From the NCBI RefSeq assembly GCF_021298855.1, contig NZ_JAJTHI010000020.1, positions 62,001 to 126,000 of the forward strand: a stretch of 64,000 bases of DNA. The letters run 5' to 3'. A program made the position numbers and the translations under genes. Below the pieces are notes generated by a model. That model was not told the origin of the DNA, made no database searches, and saw nothing but the letters and a program-made list of their open reading frames with translations. Shown here in pieces: positions 8,731 through 17,962 of the stretch; positions within the stretch are counted from its first letter, which is position 1; each line of letters starts with the position of its first letter. This DNA is from Gemmatimonas sp. GTDB lineage: Bacteria; Gemmatimonadota; Gemmatimonadetes; Gemmatimonadales; Gemmatimonadaceae.

Positions 8731-10212
8731 TCAGGATACGAGCAGTGTGGAGGCCCCGGGTGTGTAGGTAACCGTGAGGCGGGTGAGGTTGCTCGTACGC
8801 TGGGGCGACGACGGGAGATTGTTGCCCGCGCTGTCGAACAGCGCCCCGTGGTTGGGGCACCGGAAACTGGCGCCGTTGACCACGTTGATGCGTGTTCCGG
8901 CATGCGGACAGATCATCGAGAAGGCCGAGAAGCTGGTGGCACTCGTGCGGACGACGGCCACGGGCGTGGTGTTGAGAGTGCCCACGCTCCCCGCCACCCC
9001 GCCCACATTGGCCAGCGCCGGCCATGCGCTCAGGGTGACCACCAGCCCGAGCGGGGTGATGGTGAGGCTGACAGTCAGGGTGCGTGACGACACACCAGTC
9101 GCGGAAATGGTCACCTGGGCCGTGTACGTGCCGGCAGCGAGGCCGGTGGCCGTGCCACGCAACGTGACCACGGCCGGGGTCGTCGTGGCACTCAGCGCCA
9201 CGGTCAGCCAGCCAGTGGCACTACCCGGACCGTACGCGATCTGGGCGCTGAGTCCGGTGAGGGCGCCCCCCCCGGCCGTACTGACCTGGACGACCTGCAG
9301 ATCGCTTTGGCTGCCCACTGGCAGGGAGAGCGCGACCGTGGCGGCCGACAGCACCAGACTGGCCGGGCTTCCCGCGCTCTGAACCACCAGCACCACGGCC
9401 ACCGATCGCGCACCGCTACTGTTCCCCGGGGCATTCAGCGTGACGCTGGCGCTGTAGGTGCCTGCGGGCAGGGTGCCTCGGCGCGCGGACAGCGTGAGGG
9501 TGGCGGGCGCAGTCGCAGCCGAGAGCTGTACGGTGAGCCAGCCGGTGGGCTGGTTGGCGGCATAGGCGACATCGGCCGTGAGCGAGGTCAGGACGCCCCC
9601 GCCGGTGTTGCTGATGGTCACCGTCTGCGCGGCGGGATCGGCCGCAGCCGTGGTGGTGGTCGTGAACGCGAGCGAGGCGGCGCTGACCGTGAGCGCCGGA
9701 GGCAGCGGAGCCCCTCCCACCAGGAGAGTGCCGTCGGCGTTGAGCCGGACGCCCACGGCGGCGAGGTCGGCCGTGCCCTGGCCGGATAGCCACACGCCGT
9801 CCGCGTCGAACACCGCCCCGTGGTTGGGACAGCGGAAGCCGCCCGGTTCGACGGTCACGATGGTGCCGCGGTGCGGACAGCTCAGGGACCAGGCGCGATA
9901 CTGCGCGGTCGCCCTCCGCTCCACCAGCACGGGTGCCGAGAGGCCCCGCTGCACCACCGTGCGTCCGCCCACCGTCTGGAGGGCCGTGACCTGCCGCGGG
10001 TCGACGATGAACGGCTCGTCCGGGAACGGGGGAATCGTTTCCGGTCCGCCAATCACACCGTCGCCGCACGCCGTGACCAGGGCGCCCAGCGACAGGACCG
10101 AGGCTGACGCCAGGAACTGCCGACGGTCGACCCTGCCGCAGCCGGCGCAGCCACCGACCGGGGAATCCGACGTGTCCAACAGAAGCGATGCGCGGTCGTG
10201 CGGCAGCGTCAT
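8731..10212 (-). CDS. Tat-exported lipoprotein with two Rieske domains separated by Ig-like repeats
   Basis: A 493-residue protein. Residues 30-31 are a twin-arginine pair (DRRQFL) followed by a hydrophobic core and lipobox LVTAC with acceptor C49, indicating Tat export and lipid anchoring. Rieske domain 1 has C112-x-H114 and C128-x-x-H131 (CPHRG, CPNHG). Rieske domain 2 near the C-terminus has C435-x-H437 and C452-x-x-H455. Between them lie two Ser/Thr/Ala-rich repeats of about 100 residues (175-278, 283-387), each with a GWLTV strand, resembling BACON or other Ig-like folds. Rieske proteins carry a 2Fe-2S cluster and move electrons, so this may be a two-centre periplasmic electron carrier; partner unknown. 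Start ATG 10212; an ATG at 10272 would lengthen the n-region. Confidence 0.82.
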   Translation of the reverse strand: MTLPHDRASLLLDTSDSPVGGCAGCGRVDRRQFLASASVLSLGALVTACGDGVIGGPETIPPFPDEPFIVDPRQVTALQTVGGRTVVQRGLSAPVLVERRATAQYRAWSLSCPHRGTIVTVEPGGFRCPNHGAVFDADGVWLSGQGTADLAAVGVRLNADGTLLVGGAPLPPALTVSAASLAFTTTTTAAADPAAQTVTISNTGGGVLTSLTADVAYAANQPTGWLTVQLSAATAPATLTLSARRGTLPAGTYSASVTLNAPGNSSGARSVAVVLVVQSAGSPASLVLSAATVALSLPVGSQSDLQVVQVSTAGGGALTGLSAQIAYGPGSATGWLTVALSATTTPAVVTLRGTATGLAAGTYTAQVTISATGVSSRTLTVSLTITPLGLVVTLSAWPALANVGGVAGSVGTLNTTPVAVVRTSATSFSAFSMICPHAGTRINVVNGASFRCPNHGALFDSAGNNLPSSPQRTSNLTRLTVTYTPGASTLLVS

Positions 10213-10539: not shown

Positions 10540-11853
10540 TCAGGCGGGCGGCGGTCCGAGTTGCCCGCGAATCTCGCCCGCGGGGAACTGCGACGAGTGC
10601 ACGTTCACGTAGCCCTGACCGTTGCGGAGCAACGACGACAGGGAGTCGAGGGAGATGGGCGGCTGACCGCCCACCCCGCGAATGTCCGCCGCCGTGAATG
10701 ATCCCGTCAGGACACCACTCGTGCCGGTCAGCGGCGTCCGCATGAGGTCAACCAGAATGCCCGCGTTGTTGTTGGGGCCGGCGGGTCCGTGGATGTGCAT
10801 GCCGGTCGGGTTGCTGGCGATACCCTGGTAGGTCACCACGTAGTTCATGCTCGCACCGCTCCGCGTGAAGACCGCGGCCCCATTGGCGGAGCTGCTCACC
10901 GGGTTCGGGCGCTCATTGGCGCCGTTCATCTGCGTGAAGAGCGCGCTGGCGATCACATTGACCGTGCCCGTCATTCCGGCGTGCAAGGTGCAGGCGTACG
11001 GATACGTCCCGAGTGTTTCGAACACGCGCTGCGCCGATGTGCCCGAGGTCACGCCGATATTGCCCGGGGCGCCGGTCGCCTGGAAGATCACGTTGTGGCT
11101 GATGCCGCCGAACGTCCACGTGACGGTGCCCCCCTGCGCCACATTGATGGTGGGCGGCGTGAACAGGTTGGCATCCGTGGCCTGCACCGTCGCGGCAGAT
11201 GCCGCAGCCACCGGTGCCGTGACGGTCACGTTGGTCGCGGCGGTTGCCGTGACCCCATCGCGCGTGAGTGACGTGGAGATCACCGCCGCCCCGGGTGCCA
11301 CGGCGGTGAGCGACCCGCTCGCGTCCACCAGCACCTTCGTGCGATCACTCGTGGAGAACGTGGCGCCCGTCGTACCGGCCATGGGATTCCCGCGACCATC
11401 ACGCGCCGTGACCGTGAGGGGACTCGTGGCCCCGATCGCCATGCTGGCAGCGCCGACCGTGGCGGTGACGCGTGCAAACCGTTGGGCCACGTCGATCGCC
11501 ACCGTGCCGCGGGCGCTGCCGCTGGTCGCGGTGATGGTGGCGCTGCCGTTACCGGTCGCCGTGACCGTGGCCGTCGTGCCGCTGCCGGCCACGGTCGCGA
11601 CGCTCGCATCACTGGTGGTCCACGCGACCGTCGCCCCCGCGATGCTCGCGCCCTTCGTGTCGGCCACAGCGGCGGTGAGCCCGCGCGTGTCTCCCACGCT
11701 CACCATGGGGCCGCTGGAGGCGGCGGTAACGCTCACGGTTGCCAGCACGGGCGCCGACGTGGTGGTTCCCTCACCGCCGCCGCCGCACGCCGCGGCGAGG
11801 CCGGTGAGGACGACGGCGCACGAGCGCGCGGCCTGCGAAACTGGTGACGGCAT
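10540..11853 (-). CDS. lipoprotein with two Big2-type domains, a cupredoxin domain and a CHRD domain
   Basis: A 437-residue lipoprotein: signal peptide with lipobox LAAAC (acceptor C23), then two bacterial Ig-like group 2 type domains (about 35-122 and 126-212; WTTSDASVATV motif). A plastocyanin-like domain (about 220-302) has candidate blue-copper ligands H253, C288, H291 and M294 (ISHNV, YACTLHAGM). A CHRD domain (about 303-435) carries GMHIHGPAG and YVNVHSSQFPAGEIRGQL. CHRD is named after chordin; bacterial members are mostly uncharacterised. The architecture suggests a surface or periplasmic copper protein held on an Ig-like stalk. GGAGAGG about 7 nt before the ATG is a good ribosome site. 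Confidence 0.85.
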   Translation of the reverse strand: MPSPVSQAARSCAVVLTGLAAACGGGGEGTTTSAPVLATVSVTAASSGPMVSVGDTRGLTAAVADTKGASIAGATVAWTTSDASVATVAGSGTTATVTATGNGSATITATSGSARGTVAIDVAQRFARVTATVGAASMAIGATSPLTVTARDGRGNPMAGTTGATFSTSDRTKVLVDASGSLTAVAPGAAVISTSLTRDGVTATAATNVTVTAPVAAASAATVQATDANLFTPPTINVAQGGTVTWTFGGISHNVIFQATGAPGNIGVTSGTSAQRVFETLGTYPYACTLHAGMTGTVNVIASALFTQMNGANERPNPVSSSANGAAVFTRSGASMNYVVTYQGIASNPTGMHIHGPAGPNNNAGILVDLMRTPLTGTSGVLTGSFTAADIRGVGGQPPISLDSLSSLLRNGQGYVNVHSSQFPAGEIRGQLGPPPA

Positions 11854-11881
11854 CCCGACCTCTCCGGTTGAGTGGAAGCGT

Positions 11882-11896
11882 GACGCATCATGCGTC
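11882..11896. promoter_or_regulatory. perfect 15-bp palindrome upstream of the CHRD lipoprotein gene
   Basis: GACGCAT-C-ATGCGTC, two 7-base arms around one base, sits about 30 bp before the start codon at 11853, within the 95-bp gap after the pseudokinase gene. It could be an operator or a small RNA hairpin. No regulator can be assigned. Confidence 0.3.
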
Positions 11897-11948
11897 GAGC
11901 CGGCGTACAGACCGGATGACCGGGCGGACTATTCCCGATCAGCGGCGA

Positions 11949-14129
11949 TCACCGGATGACGGCCGAGAGGCGCCCGACCCGTACCCAGGCCTCGAGCGCC
12001 TCGAGCGCCGTCCCGAACCGCCGCTCGGGATCGGGGTGCATCATGCGCTCCACGAGCGCCAGCAACTCGGCGTGCCTCGGCGACGCCCCCGGGCGTCGCG
12101 GGACCGGGGGCGGCGCCGCGTGCCCGTGCTGGTGGACGGGCGTATCGACGCTGACGCCGTCGGCGAACCCCGACGACGACGGCGAACCCGCCAGCTTGCT
12201 GCCCAGCAGCTCGAGGGGAGACTGCGACGCGAAGGGCGTGTGTCCGGTGAGGCATTCGAACAGCACCACCCCGGTCGCGTAGAGGTCCGACGCGGGGCCG
12301 GGCGCTCCGCCGATGAGCAGCTCGGGCGCCATGTACTCCGGGGCGCCCGTGCGGGCACCGCCAATGGCCCGGTGCGGCGCGTCGGCGGTGTCCGCCCGGT
12401 GCACCCGTCGAGCGCCGTATCCCGCACCCGTAATGTCAAGCTTCACGACGCCGGCGCGTGACACCAGCACCCGGCGCGACGTGATGCCGCCGTGCGTCAC
12501 CGGGGCCGCGTGCAACGCGGCCAGGCCGCGCAACAGCTGTCGGGCAAGAGCCGCGACATTCGCAGCCTCCAGCGCGCCGTGCCGAGCCAGCAATTGCCCC
12601 AGCGAGACGCCGTCCACGAACTCGAGACTGACGAAACGGGTCCCCTCCGCCTCGCCGATGTCGACAACGCGAACGACATGCCGATGCGCCACCCGCGGAA
12701 ACCCGCGCGCCTCCGCCACGTCGGCGCCCCCCGAGCCGTCGCTGCGGTCGTGCGCGTCGAACCCGCCGGAGCGCAGGAGACGCAGCGCCACGACGTCCCC
12801 ACGCGCGATGTCCCGGGCGCGAAAGAGGACGCCCGCCTCTCCGCGCCCGAGTTCCTCGTCGAGCCGATACCGCTGCGCAACGTGCATCCCCGGTCGCCAC
12901 ATGGTGCCGCGCGTTGCCGCGTGGCGAAAGGCCAGCGTGCGCGCCCCCGTCGTAGGGCGGAGCGGCATGTCGGTGCCGCCCACCGGAAGCGCGGCAAGCA
13001 TCGTGCGCAGCACGTCCTGATCATTGGCTTCGATGACGAGGGCGTCGATGGCAGCCGACAGGGCCTCCACCTCGGCAGAGGCATACGGCGCTCTCAGGCG
13101 TTCCGGCTCGGCCATGCCGTCCGAGGCGCCGCCCTGCTCCACCACGTGCCGCACCTGCGCCGTCATCGCCGACACGGGATGGGCCACCGCGCGCGACGTG
13201 AGCCACGCCGCACCGAACGCCCCCAGCAGCCCGATCACGGCCGCCAGGAGCAGCGATTCCCGAACCGGTCCCAGGCTCGCGAGGGCCTCTTCGGTCGCCT
13301 GCAGCACCACGTACCCGCCAACGGGAGTTCCGCCGGCCGTGGCGAGGATGCTGCGATGCAGCATCCAGGTCTGCCGGGCGTGCACCACCTCCTGGTGGGC
13401 GCGCGTGCCCGCGGCCGGGGCGGCGGAGACCGCGCGCACCACGGCGCCGCGAAGCGCCGTGTCGCCAGCCAGACTGGTGGCAGCCACGCGCGCGCGCCCC
13501 TCGCCGTCGAGCACGAAGAACATCAGCGCCTGATTGGTGGCGAGCGCAATGTCGGCCGCCGTCAGGCTGTCGAGCACCCGGGTCGCGACCAGTACGCCAA
13601 AGGGCCGACCTCCCGGAGCAGCAATGGGAACGGCCGTGGCCTGAAAGAGCAACGAGTCCCCCGACCCGCCGAAGCCGGTGGTGATCTGCCCGCGGAGTGC
13701 CGCCGATACGAGGGGAACGCGCGCCATGGGCTCGCCAAACGCCGAGGGCTCGTCCGACTTGGCGATGAGATTGCCGGTGTCGTCGGTAATGAACACCCAC
13801 GACGCCTCGAGCTGCTCGGCGGCTTCGAACGTCTGATCGAGAATGTCATCGCGTCGGCGTTCGGCGACGAGTGTGCGGAAGTACGGGCCCTGCACGAACA
13901 CCCGCGCCCCGCCGCCGAGACTGCGGCCGCGGCCGGCAAGCAGCTGGGCAACCAGATCGGCCGACTGCTCGAGCGACTGGCGCGCCGAGTTCCGCGCGGC
14001 GCGTCGCGCACCCGCGGTGGCCACGCCAAGCACGATCGCGAGCAGGACCACCACCAACCCGGCGGTACCGGTGAACACACGCCACGACAAGCGGTGCCAT
14101 GGCAGGGACACGACACGACGCGCGACCAC
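11949..14129 (-). CDS. membrane sensor (Cache-like, HAMP-like) with C-terminal pseudokinase domain
   Basis: A 726-residue protein. TM1 is about 19-40; an extracytoplasmic region of about 240 residues (41-290) has Cache-like features (SWVFITDDTGNLIAKSDEP near 110-128); TM2 is about 292-312; a HAMP-like linker follows. From about 420 there is a protein-kinase fold with GRGEAGVLFRA (428-438) and the APE motif and SDLYATGVVLFECLTG retained. The catalytic residues are missing: the ATP-anchoring Lys is R450 (VALRLL), the HRD loop reads HGGITSRR (546-553), and the DFG position reads ITG (566-568). It is most likely a signalling pseudokinase. GTG start, 3 nt after the cupredoxin gene. Confidence 0.82.
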   Translation of the reverse strand: MVARRVVSLPWHRLSWRVFTGTAGLVVVLLAIVLGVATAGARRAARNSARQSLEQSADLVAQLLAGRGRSLGGGARVFVQGPYFRTLVAERRRDDILDQTFEAAEQLEASWVFITDDTGNLIAKSDEPSAFGEPMARVPLVSAALRGQITTGFGGSGDSLLFQATAVPIAAPGGRPFGVLVATRVLDSLTAADIALATNQALMFFVLDGEGRARVAATSLAGDTALRGAVVRAVSAAPAAGTRAHQEVVHARQTWMLHRSILATAGGTPVGGYVVLQATEEALASLGPVRESLLLAAVIGLLGAFGAAWLTSRAVAHPVSAMTAQVRHVVEQGGASDGMAEPERLRAPYASAEVEALSAAIDALVIEANDQDVLRTMLAALPVGGTDMPLRPTTGARTLAFRHAATRGTMWRPGMHVAQRYRLDEELGRGEAGVLFRARDIARGDVVALRLLRSGGFDAHDRSDGSGGADVAEARGFPRVAHRHVVRVVDIGEAEGTRFVSLEFVDGVSLGQLLARHGALEAANVAALARQLLRGLAALHAAPVTHGGITSRRVLVSRAGVVKLDITGAGYGARRVHRADTADAPHRAIGGARTGAPEYMAPELLIGGAPGPASDLYATGVVLFECLTGHTPFASQSPLELLGSKLAGSPSSSGFADGVSVDTPVHQHGHAAPPPVPRRPGASPRHAELLALVERMMHPDPERRFGTALEALEAWVRVGRLSAVIR

Positions 14130-14132
14130 GAC

Positions 14133-14840
14133 TCAGTACCGGTCGGCCCGGGTTGCCGTATAGGGCTGACCGAACTTGTTGCCGTGGGCCTTGGCCACGT
14201 ACCCGCGCGCATCGAGGGCCACCGTGAGCACGACGCCGTCGCCGGTGACGCGCACCGTCTCGACATGCTCGGCCGCGCGCTCGTGCCACACGCGCAGCAT
14301 CCACGTACCCGGCGGCACGTCGCCAATCTCGAACGACCCGTTGGCACGGGCACGCGTCACATAGGGCGTGCGAACGGCGACCACGTAATTCACCATGCGC
14401 GCGTGGATGTTGCAGTACACCGCATACACGCCCGGCGCGTTGAAGGTGGCGGACCGCGTCTTGCCGGACCGGTACAGGCCGAGGTCGAAGGCCCCCAGCG
14501 CGGAGTTGGAGAAGACGTTGTGACTGAACGGATCCTGATTGGGATACGCCACGCTGCCGCCGACGCCGATGAGCTGCACGTGCGGCTCGAACTCGCGCCG
14601 TCGCATGCCCACCGTGGCCCTGTCCATCCACGTCGGGCGTTTCGCCGTGGCCGCCTCGCCTTCCAGTGCGACGATCACGTCGGTCAGGTCGGCCGACGGG
14701 GCACCAGCGCGCTCGATGAGCCGCACCTGGCCCCGCACCGAGGCCTGCGCACCCAGCGGCGCGTGGGCGGCGGCACCCGCCCATGCGCCCACGACGACCA
14801 GCGACAGGCGACCTGACCACCGCACGATGACGCGACGCAT
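14133..14840 (-). CDS. secreted cupredoxin-like protein
   Basis: A 235-residue protein with a signal peptide (cleavage near GAQA at about 32), a central cupredoxin-like region with FSHNVFSNS (candidate ligand H107) and VYCNIHARM (C143, H146, M149), then a C-terminal beta-sandwich-like stretch with GSFEIGDVPPGTWMLRVWHE, resembling carboxypeptidase-regulatory domains. Blue-copper proteins carry electrons or sense and buffer copper; relatives are often labelled methylamine utilization proteins without experimental support. Start is the ATG at 14840, which overlaps the stop of the porin-like gene (TGATG). The pseudokinase follows after 3 nt, so the three are tightly coupled. Confidence 0.78.
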   Translation of the reverse strand: MRRVIVRWSGRLSLVVVGAWAGAAAHAPLGAQASVRGQVRLIERAGAPSADLTDVIVALEGEAATAKRPTWMDRATVGMRRREFEPHVQLIGVGGSVAYPNQDPFSHNVFSNSALGAFDLGLYRSGKTRSATFNAPGVYAVYCNIHARMVNYVVAVRTPYVTRARANGSFEIGDVPPGTWMLRVWHERAAEHVETVRVTGDGVVLTVALDARGYVAKAHGNKFGQPYTATRADRY

Positions 14841-16225
14841 CAAAGGTCCACTCCGAAGGCGAGATTCCAATGCTGCGCGCGCCAGAGCCCATCGGCGTAG
14901 CGCGTGCGAAGGCGCCGGTACTCGAGACTCACGAACAGCGGCATGGCCGGGCGCCAGGTGGTGTGCAGGGCGCAGACGCCGTTACGTCGGCGGTCCGCGC
15001 CGGCACCGTGGACCCGATCCGTGCCGCACCCCATTCCGTGCACCAGCGAGGGGTGCCATTGGCCGTTGAGCTGCAGCCATCCGGCCGTGCCGGTGAGCGG
15101 GGGGCCGGTCCCTCCTGCCGGCACCCCCAGGGTCCCGAAGTTCTGACCGATGCCGCCACCGCCGAGCCCGCGCACCAGCGCCCCGCGGTACGCCTCGCCG
15201 CGCACCTCCACCCCGTGGCCGAGAGCGGCGTGCACGTCGGCCGCGATGGCCCAACTCCGCAGCGTGTTTGCTGGCGCGGTGCGCAGCCATGCCGCATGTG
15301 CCCCCACGCCGATTTCCATGCCCGAGGTCCACACGGCCTGGGCAGCGCGCTCGTCGAGGTCGGTGCCGTGCCGCAGGCGGACTCGAGATTGGAGAGCCGG
15401 ACGGCCGCTCGCCTGGCCGAGGTCCGCGCCACCGCTCGTGGCGCCCAGCGGGCGTTCCGACGCGTTGGGTGACAGGACCGCCCCCTGTGCCGCCATGGCC
15501 CACTCACCGCGCGTGGCGAGCGTGCGGGTGACCCGGAGCTGGGGCAACCAGTTCCAGAGATTTCCCGCGGCAGCGAACAGGGGAATTGCCACGCCGGCGG
15601 TACTCACGGGGTTGAGGTCAGCAATGAGCGGGGTCTCCATGCCAAGGAGCACCTCCGTCCGCGGCCACACGAGGAAGACCCGCGCCGTCCGCAACCGAGG
15701 CTCCGGAAAGAGCGGCGGCGACGCATCGAGCGCGCGGGCGAAGAAGTCCAGCTCGAAGTCGGCGAGCAACGTGGCCCCGGCCACGCTGTCCATGCTCGCA
15801 CTGCCCCCGAGTAACGCCTGTCGCATGGACATGCCGAACACCTGCGGCCGCGCGTTGCCGCCACCGGCAGCCCGTGCCGGCGTCGCGAACACCGGGATCT
15901 CGGCGGCGGATACCCCTCCGCGGGTTCCCGAGGCATGGACCACGAGCCGCGCGGACAGATCGAGTTGGAGCCGCGAGCGCAGCCGCACGCCGCTGGCCGC
16001 CTCGGTCGCGACCTGCTGCTGGAGCAGCGTCAGCGCCGAATCGGTCCGTGCCAATCGGGCCGCAAGCGAATCGAGGGTCCGCTGCCACCGGTCGTGGGCG
16101 GTGCTGTCCCGCTGTTGCGCGGACGTCACCGACGGCCACGCCCCGGACAGCGCGAGCACGACCAGCCGCGATATCCAGACGGCCCGGGATGCGGTCGTCA
16201 CCAAGCGGCCGGCGCCGGCGCGCAT
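14840..16225 (-). CDS. porin-like outer-membrane protein with N-terminal coiled coil
   Basis: A 461-residue protein: signal peptide ending near SAQQ (about 36), then a short coiled-coil heptad region (LDSLAARLARTDSALTLLQQQV, about 47-70), as in trimeric porins of the OprP/OprO type. A long region of alternating strands follows, rich in Trp and Arg, ending HWNLAFGVDL. It is likely an outer-membrane channel or surface barrel; the substrate is unknown. The chosen ATG at 16225 gives a clean signal peptide; a GTG at 16315 would add an improbable Pro-rich leader. About 117 bases separate it from the anti-sigma gene upstream. Confidence 0.68.
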   Translation of the reverse strand: MRAGAGRLVTTASRAVWISRLVVLALSGAWPSVTSAQQRDSTAHDRWQRTLDSLAARLARTDSALTLLQQQVATEAASGVRLRSRLQLDLSARLVVHASGTRGGVSAAEIPVFATPARAAGGGNARPQVFGMSMRQALLGGSASMDSVAGATLLADFELDFFARALDASPPLFPEPRLRTARVFLVWPRTEVLLGMETPLIADLNPVSTAGVAIPLFAAAGNLWNWLPQLRVTRTLATRGEWAMAAQGAVLSPNASERPLGATSGGADLGQASGRPALQSRVRLRHGTDLDERAAQAVWTSGMEIGVGAHAAWLRTAPANTLRSWAIAADVHAALGHGVEVRGEAYRGALVRGLGGGGIGQNFGTLGVPAGGTGPPLTGTAGWLQLNGQWHPSLVHGMGCGTDRVHGAGADRRRNGVCALHTTWRPAMPLFVSLEYRRLRTRYADGLWRAQHWNLAFGVDL

Positions 16226-16342
16226 CGTCCCGGCGCGACACGCGCGCGGAGTCGTCGGGGGGGCAAACACGCCACCAATAGGCACGCCGCATGGCCGCTT
16301 GGCAATGCGGGCCACGCGCCGCGGGACGCATGGCCGATGGGC

Positions 16343-17257
16343 TCATGGCTGACGGGACGTCCCCACACGATCGGTGGGCGTCGGTGACCGCTGCCACGCG
16401 CGCAACTGTTCGAAGGTGGCCGGCCCCATGAGCACGGACGCCCCGCCCGGGATGCGCCACGCCACCAAGCGGAGGGAATCGGCCCGTGTGCCCACCACCA
16501 CCCCGTCGAGGTCGCGGAGCACCCCGGGTGCATGGAGAAGGACCCCATCCGGCACCGCGAACTGGACCAGCAGCCGCCCCTCATGGCGATACGCCAGCGC
16601 GCCGACCAGCTCCCCCCACGCGGAGGTGGTCCACACGGCCTCAAGATCGAGGGCGGGGTGCGCGATGGGCACGACGGCCATCCCGAGGGCGCGACGTACG
16701 GCGTCAAGGTCGCGGTCGCGCCCTGGTAGCGGGTCGGTGAGCGCGTGCCAGCGCACCGCCAGCGAGTCGAGGAGCGGAGCCTCGCCGAGTGCCACCGGTG
16801 CCGCCACGCCGCCGGCCGCCGTGTCGGTAGGCAACGCCGGCGTGGGTTCGCGCCGCATCAGGCCCGCCCAGCACAGCAGCAGGAGCCCCCCCGCTGGCGC
16901 GACCCACCGCCAGCGCGCGCCGAGCCAGGCGGCCACCGACCAGACCGGTGGCGCGACCGCCGATGCAGGGACAGGGGCGTTGGCGATGGACTGCCTGATG
17001 CGCGTGTGCAACGCCGCTGACGCGACGGGTCCACCCATCTGCCCAAGACTTGCCGCCAGCTGCCGCTGCAGCGCAACCTCGCGGGCACAACGGCGGCACA
17101 CGGCCAGATGCGCCTCCACCTGCGCCGCCGTTTCCGGGGGCAGTTCGCCGTCCAGGAAGGCGGCCAGCAGCGTCGCCAGCACGTCGTGCTGCTCGGCCAC
17201 ACGGTGCGGTTCGTACGGCACCCGGTTGGGTGCCGCCCCCTGCGCATGCTCGCTCAT
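16343..17257 (-). CDS. transmembrane anti-sigma factor with zinc-finger domain
   Basis: A 304-residue protein. The N-terminal anti-sigma zinc finger has the H-x3-C-x2-C pattern at H50, C54 and C57, preceded by a helical segment LLAAFLDGELPPE. One TM helix (about 117-133) separates it from a C-terminal extracytoplasmic domain of about 170 residues with no motif that I recognise. Such proteins hold an ECF sigma factor inactive until an envelope signal arrives. The ATG at 17257 overlaps the sigma gene's stop (ATGA), so stoichiometric production is expected. The outer domain is where a copper or redox signal could be read, but that is inference. Confidence 0.88.
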   Translation of the reverse strand: MSEHAQGAAPNRVPYEPHRVAEQHDVLATLLAAFLDGELPPETAAQVEAHLAVCRRCAREVALQRQLAASLGQMGGPVASAALHTRIRQSIANAPVPASAVAPPVWSVAAWLGARWRWVAPAGGLLLLCWAGLMRREPTPALPTDTAAGGVAAPVALGEAPLLDSLAVRWHALTDPLPGRDRDLDAVRRALGMAVVPIAHPALDLEAVWTTSAWGELVGALAYRHEGRLLVQFAVPDGVLLHAPGVLRDLDGVVVGTRADSLRLVAWRIPGGASVLMGPATFEQLRAWQRSPTPTDRVGTSRQP

Positions 17258-17862
17258 GATGACCTCGGCATGCGGCGGCTGCCGCGAGCCGCCTGCGCCC
17301 CCAACGCCCACTCGCGACCGCGTTCGGCAATCACCGCCGCGAGCAAACGTCGGCCGCGGGACATCCGACTCATGATGGTGCCGATCGGGGCACCCACCGT
17401 GTCGGCAATCTCGGCGTAGGTGAAGCCTTCGATGTCGTGCAACTCGACGGCGATGGCGAAGTCGTCCGGGATGGCCCCAAGGGCCGCCCGCAGCACCTCG
17501 CGATCGAGGCGCGTGATCAGCTCGTCGAACACGGACTCGCCGCTGCTGGCCACCAGCGACTCGTGGACATCGTCGAGTCGCGAGATGGGCAACAGGCGGG
17601 CACGGCGGGTCTGGCGCTCGGCCGATTCACTCAGCACCGAACGCAGGATGCGATAGAGCCAGGCGCGCACACTGCCGGGATCCCGCAATTCGTCGAACGC
17701 GGCCCACGCCTTCACGCAGGTGTCCTGCACCGCGTCCTCGGCATCCACCAGCGTGGCAGTGCGACGCGCCGCAAAGCCCAACAAACGGTCGAGGTGCGGG
17801 AGGACGAGGGCCTCGTACGCCCGCTGGCGGTCGTCGATCGTGACGTGGAGTGGCGTGGGCAT
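17254..17862 (-). CDS. ECF-family RNA polymerase sigma factor
   Basis: A 202-residue sigma factor. Region 2 (about 15-80) shows DAEDAVQDTCVKAWAAF and DPGSVRAWLYRILRSVL; region 4 (about 120-180) shows IPDDFAIAVELHDIEGFTYAEIADTVGAPIGTIMSRMSRGRRLL, a classical helix-turn-helix binding the -35 element. Regions 1.1 and 3 are absent, as expected of ECF sigmas. The ATG at 17862 gives normal length; upstream in-frame codons would run into the divergent aminopeptidase gene. It heads the block sigma, anti-sigma, porin-like, cupredoxin, pseudokinase. Confidence 0.92.
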   Translation of the reverse strand: MPTPLHVTIDDRQRAYEALVLPHLDRLLGFAARRTATLVDAEDAVQDTCVKAWAAFDELRDPGSVRAWLYRILRSVLSESAERQTRRARLLPISRLDDVHESLVASSGESVFDELITRLDREVLRAALGAIPDDFAIAVELHDIEGFTYAEIADTVGAPIGTIMSRMSRGRRLLAAVIAERGREWALGAQAARGSRRMPRSS

Positions 17863-17962
17863 GCCGTGGGAGAGGGACCGAGGGGCAAAAGTATTCCTGG
17901 CGTCCTCCCGTGGCGAGGATACGCGCTTTACACCGGCCGACCGGGGGCCGCAGTTTGGGCCC
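17863..17962. promoter_or_regulatory. divergent promoter region, sigma factor versus M1 aminopeptidase
   Basis: 100 bases between two divergent starts. On the minus strand GGAATAC (17891-17897) resembles an ECF -35 element, and its complement GTATTCC could act as part of a plus-strand promoter. No downstream -10 of convincing quality is visible for either, so autoregulation is only a possibility. Confidence 0.3.

Follow-up and report, generated by a model that had tools for sequence, protein, structure and literature searches.

Do six adjacent genes in a Gemmatimonas genome form a single module for sensing conditions outside the cell, and was this module inherited as a whole? The window, i.e., the whole stretch of 64,000 nucleotides that was analysed, carries on its minus strand a row of genes encoding an ECF sigma factor, an anti-sigma factor, a porin-like protein, a cupredoxin, a kinase-like membrane receptor and a lipoprotein. 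A sequence-only reading had proposed that these six genes constitute one module, which detects copper or redox state and relays it by protein binding. All six open reading frames described by that reading are present, and their packing is as tight as it claimed: the sigma and anti-sigma frames (17254-17862 and 16343-17257) overlap by ATGA, the end of the porin-like gene and the cupredoxin ATG share TGATG at 14840, and only 3 nt separate the cupredoxin stop from the receptor GTG at 14129. The gap between the receptor gene and the lipoprotein gene is 95 nt, and the latter has a promoter motif of its own. Pfam assigns Sigma70_r2 and r4_2, zf-HC2, dCache_3 with Pkinase, Copper-bind (in two proteins), CHRD and Big_2 to the products of the locus. 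An Rfam search of the window returned no matches, and a search of the region for Sigma-70 promoters and terminators found none. The explanation that we favour, with moderate confidence, is that the locus holds an inherited-together envelope-sensing cassette, composed of a barrel, a cupredoxin and a dCache receptor, which in the clade of the window is coupled to a dedicated ECF sigma factor and its zinc-motif anti-sigma factor.

The sigma factor (17254-17862, minus strand; 202 aa) contains sigma-70 regions 2 and 4 only, with the DAED motif in region 2.2 (LVDAEDAVQ), as is characteristic of ECF group 4 sigma factors. Its best NCBIfam match is SigH_actino, with a score under the cut-off of that model. 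The anti-sigma factor (16343-17257, minus strand) is predicted from a zf-HC2 domain with the HxxxCxxC motif, followed by a single hydrophobic segment and about 170 aa of C-terminal sequence. The zinc motif is kept in 16/16 loci, while the transmembrane segment is clear in most relatives and weak in the window; the idea that it has been lost there was dropped because a short hydrophobic segment is present. RsrA-type redox anti-sigma factors are soluble proteins that combine the HxxxCxxC zinc motif with an N-terminal redox cysteine. The protein of the window is not of this type, since its HLAVCRRC lacks a preceding cysteine and is followed by the hydrophobic segment.

Several known systems resemble this pair in part. 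SigH/SigR-type ECF/zinc anti-sigma pairs share with it an autoregulated sigma factor (predicted here), an overlapping anti-sigma gene, HxxxCxxC and a GGAAT -35 element (PMC10012870), the promoter of the Corynebacterium glutamicum SigH being GGAAt-N18-19-GTT (PMC10012870). The cassette differs in its -10 element, which is SSTCT rather than GTT, in an anti-sigma factor that looks membrane-anchored with an outer part, and in a regulon predicted to comprise only the cassette and a single lipoprotein. CorE of Myxococcus xanthus is a copper-dependent ECF sigma factor that senses the metal through its own C-terminal extension (PMC8999054). A copper-linked ECF response would be common to both systems, but the sigma factor of the cassette has a single cysteine, lacks a metal-sensing cysteine-rich C-terminal extension and is paired with an anti-sigma factor.

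The porin-like gene (14840-16225, minus strand) has an open frame beginning at GTG 16315, and its start is probably ATG 16225. Its product matches no Pfam family. It does have a conserved family alignment, and its AlphaFold model (pLDDT 74.8) shows an N-terminal coiled coil and 16 strands that resemble solved porins in the PDB, DcaP being the best match. As modelled, the protein thus has the 16-strand beta barrel of a general porin, and it is predicted to reside in the outer membrane.

The next gene (14133-14840, minus strand; start probably ATG 14840) encodes an exported, amicyanin-like cupredoxin with a C-terminal beta domain. The sequence-only reading had recognised two blue-copper proteins at the locus, and Copper-bind indeed matches both, although the stand-alone cupredoxin, at 20.0 bits, falls just short of the 21.2 cut-off. 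The type-1 copper ligands H107, C143, H146 and M149 are invariant in 29/29 aligned homologues from Gemmatimonadota, Myxococcota and Pseudomonadota, and the AlphaFold model (pLDDT 88.8) matches amicyanin and plastocyanin. With the cupredoxin fold in the model and the H, C, H, M ligand set in the alignment, it is a type-1 cupredoxin that is predicted to bind copper. The family also occurs outside the cassette. The genome of the window encodes a distant second paralogue (L002; G000:C4:12288-12743; 29% identity), beside which no cassette partner was matched in the 3.5 kb seen. A relative with a 7.5-Mb genome (G253) has three cupredoxin copies, only one of which adjoins the sigma gene, and a Myxococcota genome (G061; L095-L101) has eight cupredoxins of the cassette family, including one close to a kinase-TPR gene (L098 2388-4340).

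The second copper protein is the lipoprotein (10540-11853, minus strand), in which Pfam finds Ig-like (Big_2), cupredoxin and CHRD domains. Its copper ligands are kept in the full-length homologues with a readable pattern, one homologue being unread. Beyond it lies a gene for an exported double-Rieske protein (8731-10212, minus strand), with Ig/BACON-like repeats between its two Rieske domains, which stays nearby in many sigma-bearing relatives. Its membership of the sigma regulon was rejected, as no sigma motif stands in front of it.

How these genes are inherited was followed across Gemmatimonadota. Related loci retrieved by tblastn show two layouts: one in which sigma, anti-sigma, porin, cupredoxin and receptor genes share a strand, the lipoprotein gene being usually included, and one without the sigma gene in which the porin gene is divergent from those of the cupredoxin and receptor. 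Among 61 related genomes, the receptor is found in 26 and a sigma orthologue in 13; the latter adjoins the porin gene, just upstream, in 13/13 carriers and is found in none of the core-less genomes (Fisher 1.6e-6), i.e., it occurs solely beside the cassette. Among 298 genomes of the phylum, the cupredoxin (strict matches) is found in 60 and the sigma factor in 16. The cupredoxin accompanies 14 of these 16 sigma genes, 2.9-3.3 kb away on the same strand, and the two exceptions are the weakest sigma matches. By gene order, the conserved core is thus the three genes for porin, cupredoxin and receptor, and the sigma/anti-sigma pair occurs only in a single clade of Gemmatimonadota, in tight linkage with the cassette. 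Most of the phylum carries the core without the pair, and the sigma factor is therefore not essential to core function. The genes flanking sigma-less cassettes are mostly housekeeping genes and give no clue to function. The claim of a six-gene module is accordingly upheld in part. The genes form a heritable unit that, as the earlier reading expected, stays together across relatives within the sigma-bearing clade, with a porin-cupredoxin-receptor operon and a lipoprotein gene tied by sequence to the sigma factor; that all six descend together from an ancestral module was rejected, because most core carriers lack sigma and anti-sigma.

The tie to the sigma factor is a putative promoter motif. 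In aligned sequences upstream of the sigma gene, GGGAATA-N16-CGTCT or near variants are shared, 32-38 nt from the start in most loci. The window contains exactly two GGAATA-N16-SSTCT sites, where 0.03 are expected, and both lie at the right genes: GGAATA-N16-CCTCT (17871-17897, minus strand), 35 nt ahead of the sigma start, and GGAATA-N16-GGTCT (11909-11935, minus strand), 82 nt ahead of the lipoprotein start. Genome-wide, the pattern occurs four times in the genome of the window (G000) and twice in a relative (G015), two sites per genome being in the module locus, and its reverse is nearly absent from both. The motif, which the cassette sigma factor is predicted to recognise, stands at 17/17 operon heads in distinct loci, a count that is partly in-sample, the motif having been derived from the same loci and slightly loosened (GGAATG, spacer 17) for L039, L040 and L076; 0.024 are expected by first-order Markov resampling per upstream region, which makes such tiny expectations rough. 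Only the sites at lipoprotein genes and the relocated sites therefore come near to independent tests. The motif precedes 8/9 downstream lipoprotein genes, and in two loci (L039 and L040), where the lipoprotein gene heads the operon, it is found ahead of that gene and not of the sigma gene; the putative promoter moves with the operon head when the gene order changes. It is present in 0/34 upstream regions of sigma-less cassettes. Within the sigma-bearing clade, as far as sequence can tell, nothing contradicts the supposed dependence of the porin-cupredoxin-pseudokinase unit on the sigma factor. The lipoprotein target seems to have been swapped in some loci, where the motif lies ahead of a 241-aa membrane-like protein (L037 12932, plus strand) or a PEP-CTERM-like secreted protein (L041 12065, minus strand); in L043 it precedes a gene for a shorter CHRD protein. 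A GGAATA-N15 near-match inside the cupredoxin gene of two sigma-less cassettes (L012/L075 and L018/L080 type loci; L052 10585, L055 10603) differs in spacing and is taken as chance.

Outside Gemmatimonadota, the receptor is found with other outputs. In Caballeronia, Comamonas and Novosphingobium, its profile finds GGDEF-EAL proteins through their N-terminal halves (E 2e-39 to 2e-18; BLASTP 5e-9); all of these proteins contain dCache_3 and HAMP and adjoin cupredoxins annotated as 'methylamine utilization protein' or 'carboxypeptidase regulatory-like'. These Burkholderiales and Novosphingobium pairs are like the cassette in having a homologous cupredoxin with the same four ligands and a homologous dCache-HAMP receptor half, and an outer-membrane DUF3034 gene lies alongside in 2/3 loci inspected. 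They are unlike it in their c-di-GMP output, in a truncated haemoglobin gene (2/3 loci), in a DUF3034 protein that cannot be aligned to the porin and in having no ECF sigma factor. Homology between the porin and DUF3034 was rejected (hhalign probability 6%), and because none is detectable, the outer-membrane position may be filled by analogy in Pseudomonadota. The truncated haemoglobin genes inside these cassettes (L060 4486-4926; L062 3267-3830) hint at oxygen or nitric oxide, and not copper alone, as the signal. Six Myxococcota loci were examined, and in each an adenylate/guanylate cyclase domain forms the C-terminal end of the receptor encoded immediately after the cupredoxin; in sigma-less Gemmatimonadota, dCache_3-HAMP is joined to an intact kinase. 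One Myxococcota locus (L142 1470-7590) may represent yet another type of output, with consecutive genes for a MauG-like peroxidase, a cassette-family cupredoxin, a multihaem cytochrome and a HAMP-SpoIIE phosphatase receptor.

The receptor of the window (11949-14129, minus strand) couples a dCache sensor domain (dCache_3, E 1.4e-7, over the cut-off) to a kinase-fold domain; HAMP stays below threshold, yet it is clear in sigma-less relatives. The claim that the kinase fold persists without catalysis agrees with the motif alignment: the Pkinase profile matches (1.3e-27), while VAIK is replaced by VALR, HRD by HGG and DFG by DIT. All three motifs are present in 18/18 sigma-less receptors of the alignment set, and the HRD arginine is lost in 16/16 sigma-linked ones. 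Lysine and aspartate are both gone in the window, L032, L033 and L065, the aspartate in L042 and L043, and the lysine in L073. When the tree is built only from the sensor part, a single change each suffices for the presence of sigma and for the shift from RD to non-RD kinase, both on one branch (100/100 support); catalytic residues must have been lost at least three times, every time on the sigma side. As the root of this tree was not inferred, a gain of sigma in a single clade is the simpler interpretation and not proof. The predicted pseudokinase of the window is a derived state, the product of a late and repeated degeneration of an intact receptor kinase that is confined to the sigma clade.

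Altogether, these observations fit a model in which the sigma factor most likely transcribes the whole cassette and the surface cupredoxin-CHRD lipoprotein from a dedicated promoter, in positive feedback. The dCache domain would be engaged by the cupredoxin, copper-loaded or redox-changed, or by a small molecule that enters through the porin. Its kinase domain being non-catalytic in this lineage, the receptor would then serve as a ligand-switched scaffold acting on the anti-sigma or sigma factor, and the sigma factor, once released, would activate cassette and lipoprotein gene alike. What the sequences show directly is the gene linkage, the promoter motif, the copper ligands, the exchange of outputs, and a kinase domain that lost its catalytic residues while under selection; from there we infer copper or redox state as the signal, relay by protein binding, and contacts of the receptor with the cupredoxin and the anti-sigma factor. 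It is also conceivable, although rather unlikely, that the operon is a supply line and no sensor: sigma and anti-sigma would themselves sense envelope or metal stress and induce the porin, copper electron carriers and a receptor that reports elsewhere and does not feed the sigma factor. Cupredoxins are classical electron carriers, the anti-sigma factor possesses an outer part and a zinc motif of its own, the Rieske gene remains nearby, and a positive-feedback operon needs no sensor of its own inside it. However, the core persists where sigma is absent and is never without a receptor, the cupredoxin directly precedes a signalling receptor in other phyla, and the kinase change maps to the branch of the sigma factor.

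The evidence on the kinase domain bears on a second alternative, in which the receptor still phosphorylates the anti-sigma or sigma factor, either as an atypical active enzyme or via another kinase. Lysine and catalytic aspartate are retained in 9/16 sigma-linked receptors, and the membrane Hanks-type kinases PknS and PknT, encoded with the ECF sigma factors EcfK and EcfP in an arrangement like that of the cassette, phosphorylate ECF sigma factors (PMC13147305, PMC8999054). We nevertheless give this alternative little credence for the window, where, as in its three nearest relatives, the VAIK lysine and HRD aspartate are replaced and DFG is altered. Unlike the PknS/EcfK and PknT/EcfP pairs, the cassette has a kinase without catalytic residues, a sigma factor with DAED and an anti-sigma factor. 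The sigma factor is likewise distinct from the phosphorylation-activated ECF43 group, in which DAED is replaced, no anti-sigma factor is present and the neighbouring kinase is active (PMC8999054). Most sigma-linked receptors retain an apparently intact non-RD kinase, which suggests that the original link ran through phosphorylation of a partner and was replaced in the lineage of the window. That the kinase domain there is a functionless, decaying pseudogene, sigma and anti-sigma alone running the cassette, is hardly probable, for although the kinase part of this clade evolves more rapidly than its sensor part (intact kinases show the opposite), the kinase frame stays open over about 310 codons at a dN/dS of 0.31-0.39 (dS 0.5-1.4), the full-length domain is kept in four loci of the clade and the kinase profile still matches. 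The corresponding dN/dS is 0.05-0.16 in intact kinases and 0.33 for L042/L043, the pair in which the aspartate is gone; selection on the domain is thus relaxed yet still purifying, unlike that on a pseudogene.

Returning to the sensing cassette, its single parts are of known kinds, while their combination and the exchange of outputs appear undescribed, an open-access literature search having found no account of the cassette. Other bacteria wire the same set to different internal signals, and the set therefore looks like a plug-in sensor for outside conditions. In this broader proposal, which we put forward only tentatively, barrel, cupredoxin and dCache-HAMP receptor would form a detachable copper/redox input unit found across phyla, with c-di-GMP turnover, cyclic nucleotide synthesis, protein phosphorylation or an ECF sigma factor as output; gain of the sigma factor would have removed the need for phosphorylation, and the kinase would have decayed repeatedly to a binding pseudokinase. 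If this is right, one copper-protein input unit wired to at least four output chemistries would amount to a natural experiment in output exchange, and a function would be suggested for the 'methylamine utilization protein' encoded beside EAL genes and for DUF3034. The two 27-bp putative promoter sites open the regulatory half to direct testing, and the family would offer a bacterial case of receptor kinases turning pseudokinase in step with their linkage to a transcription factor.
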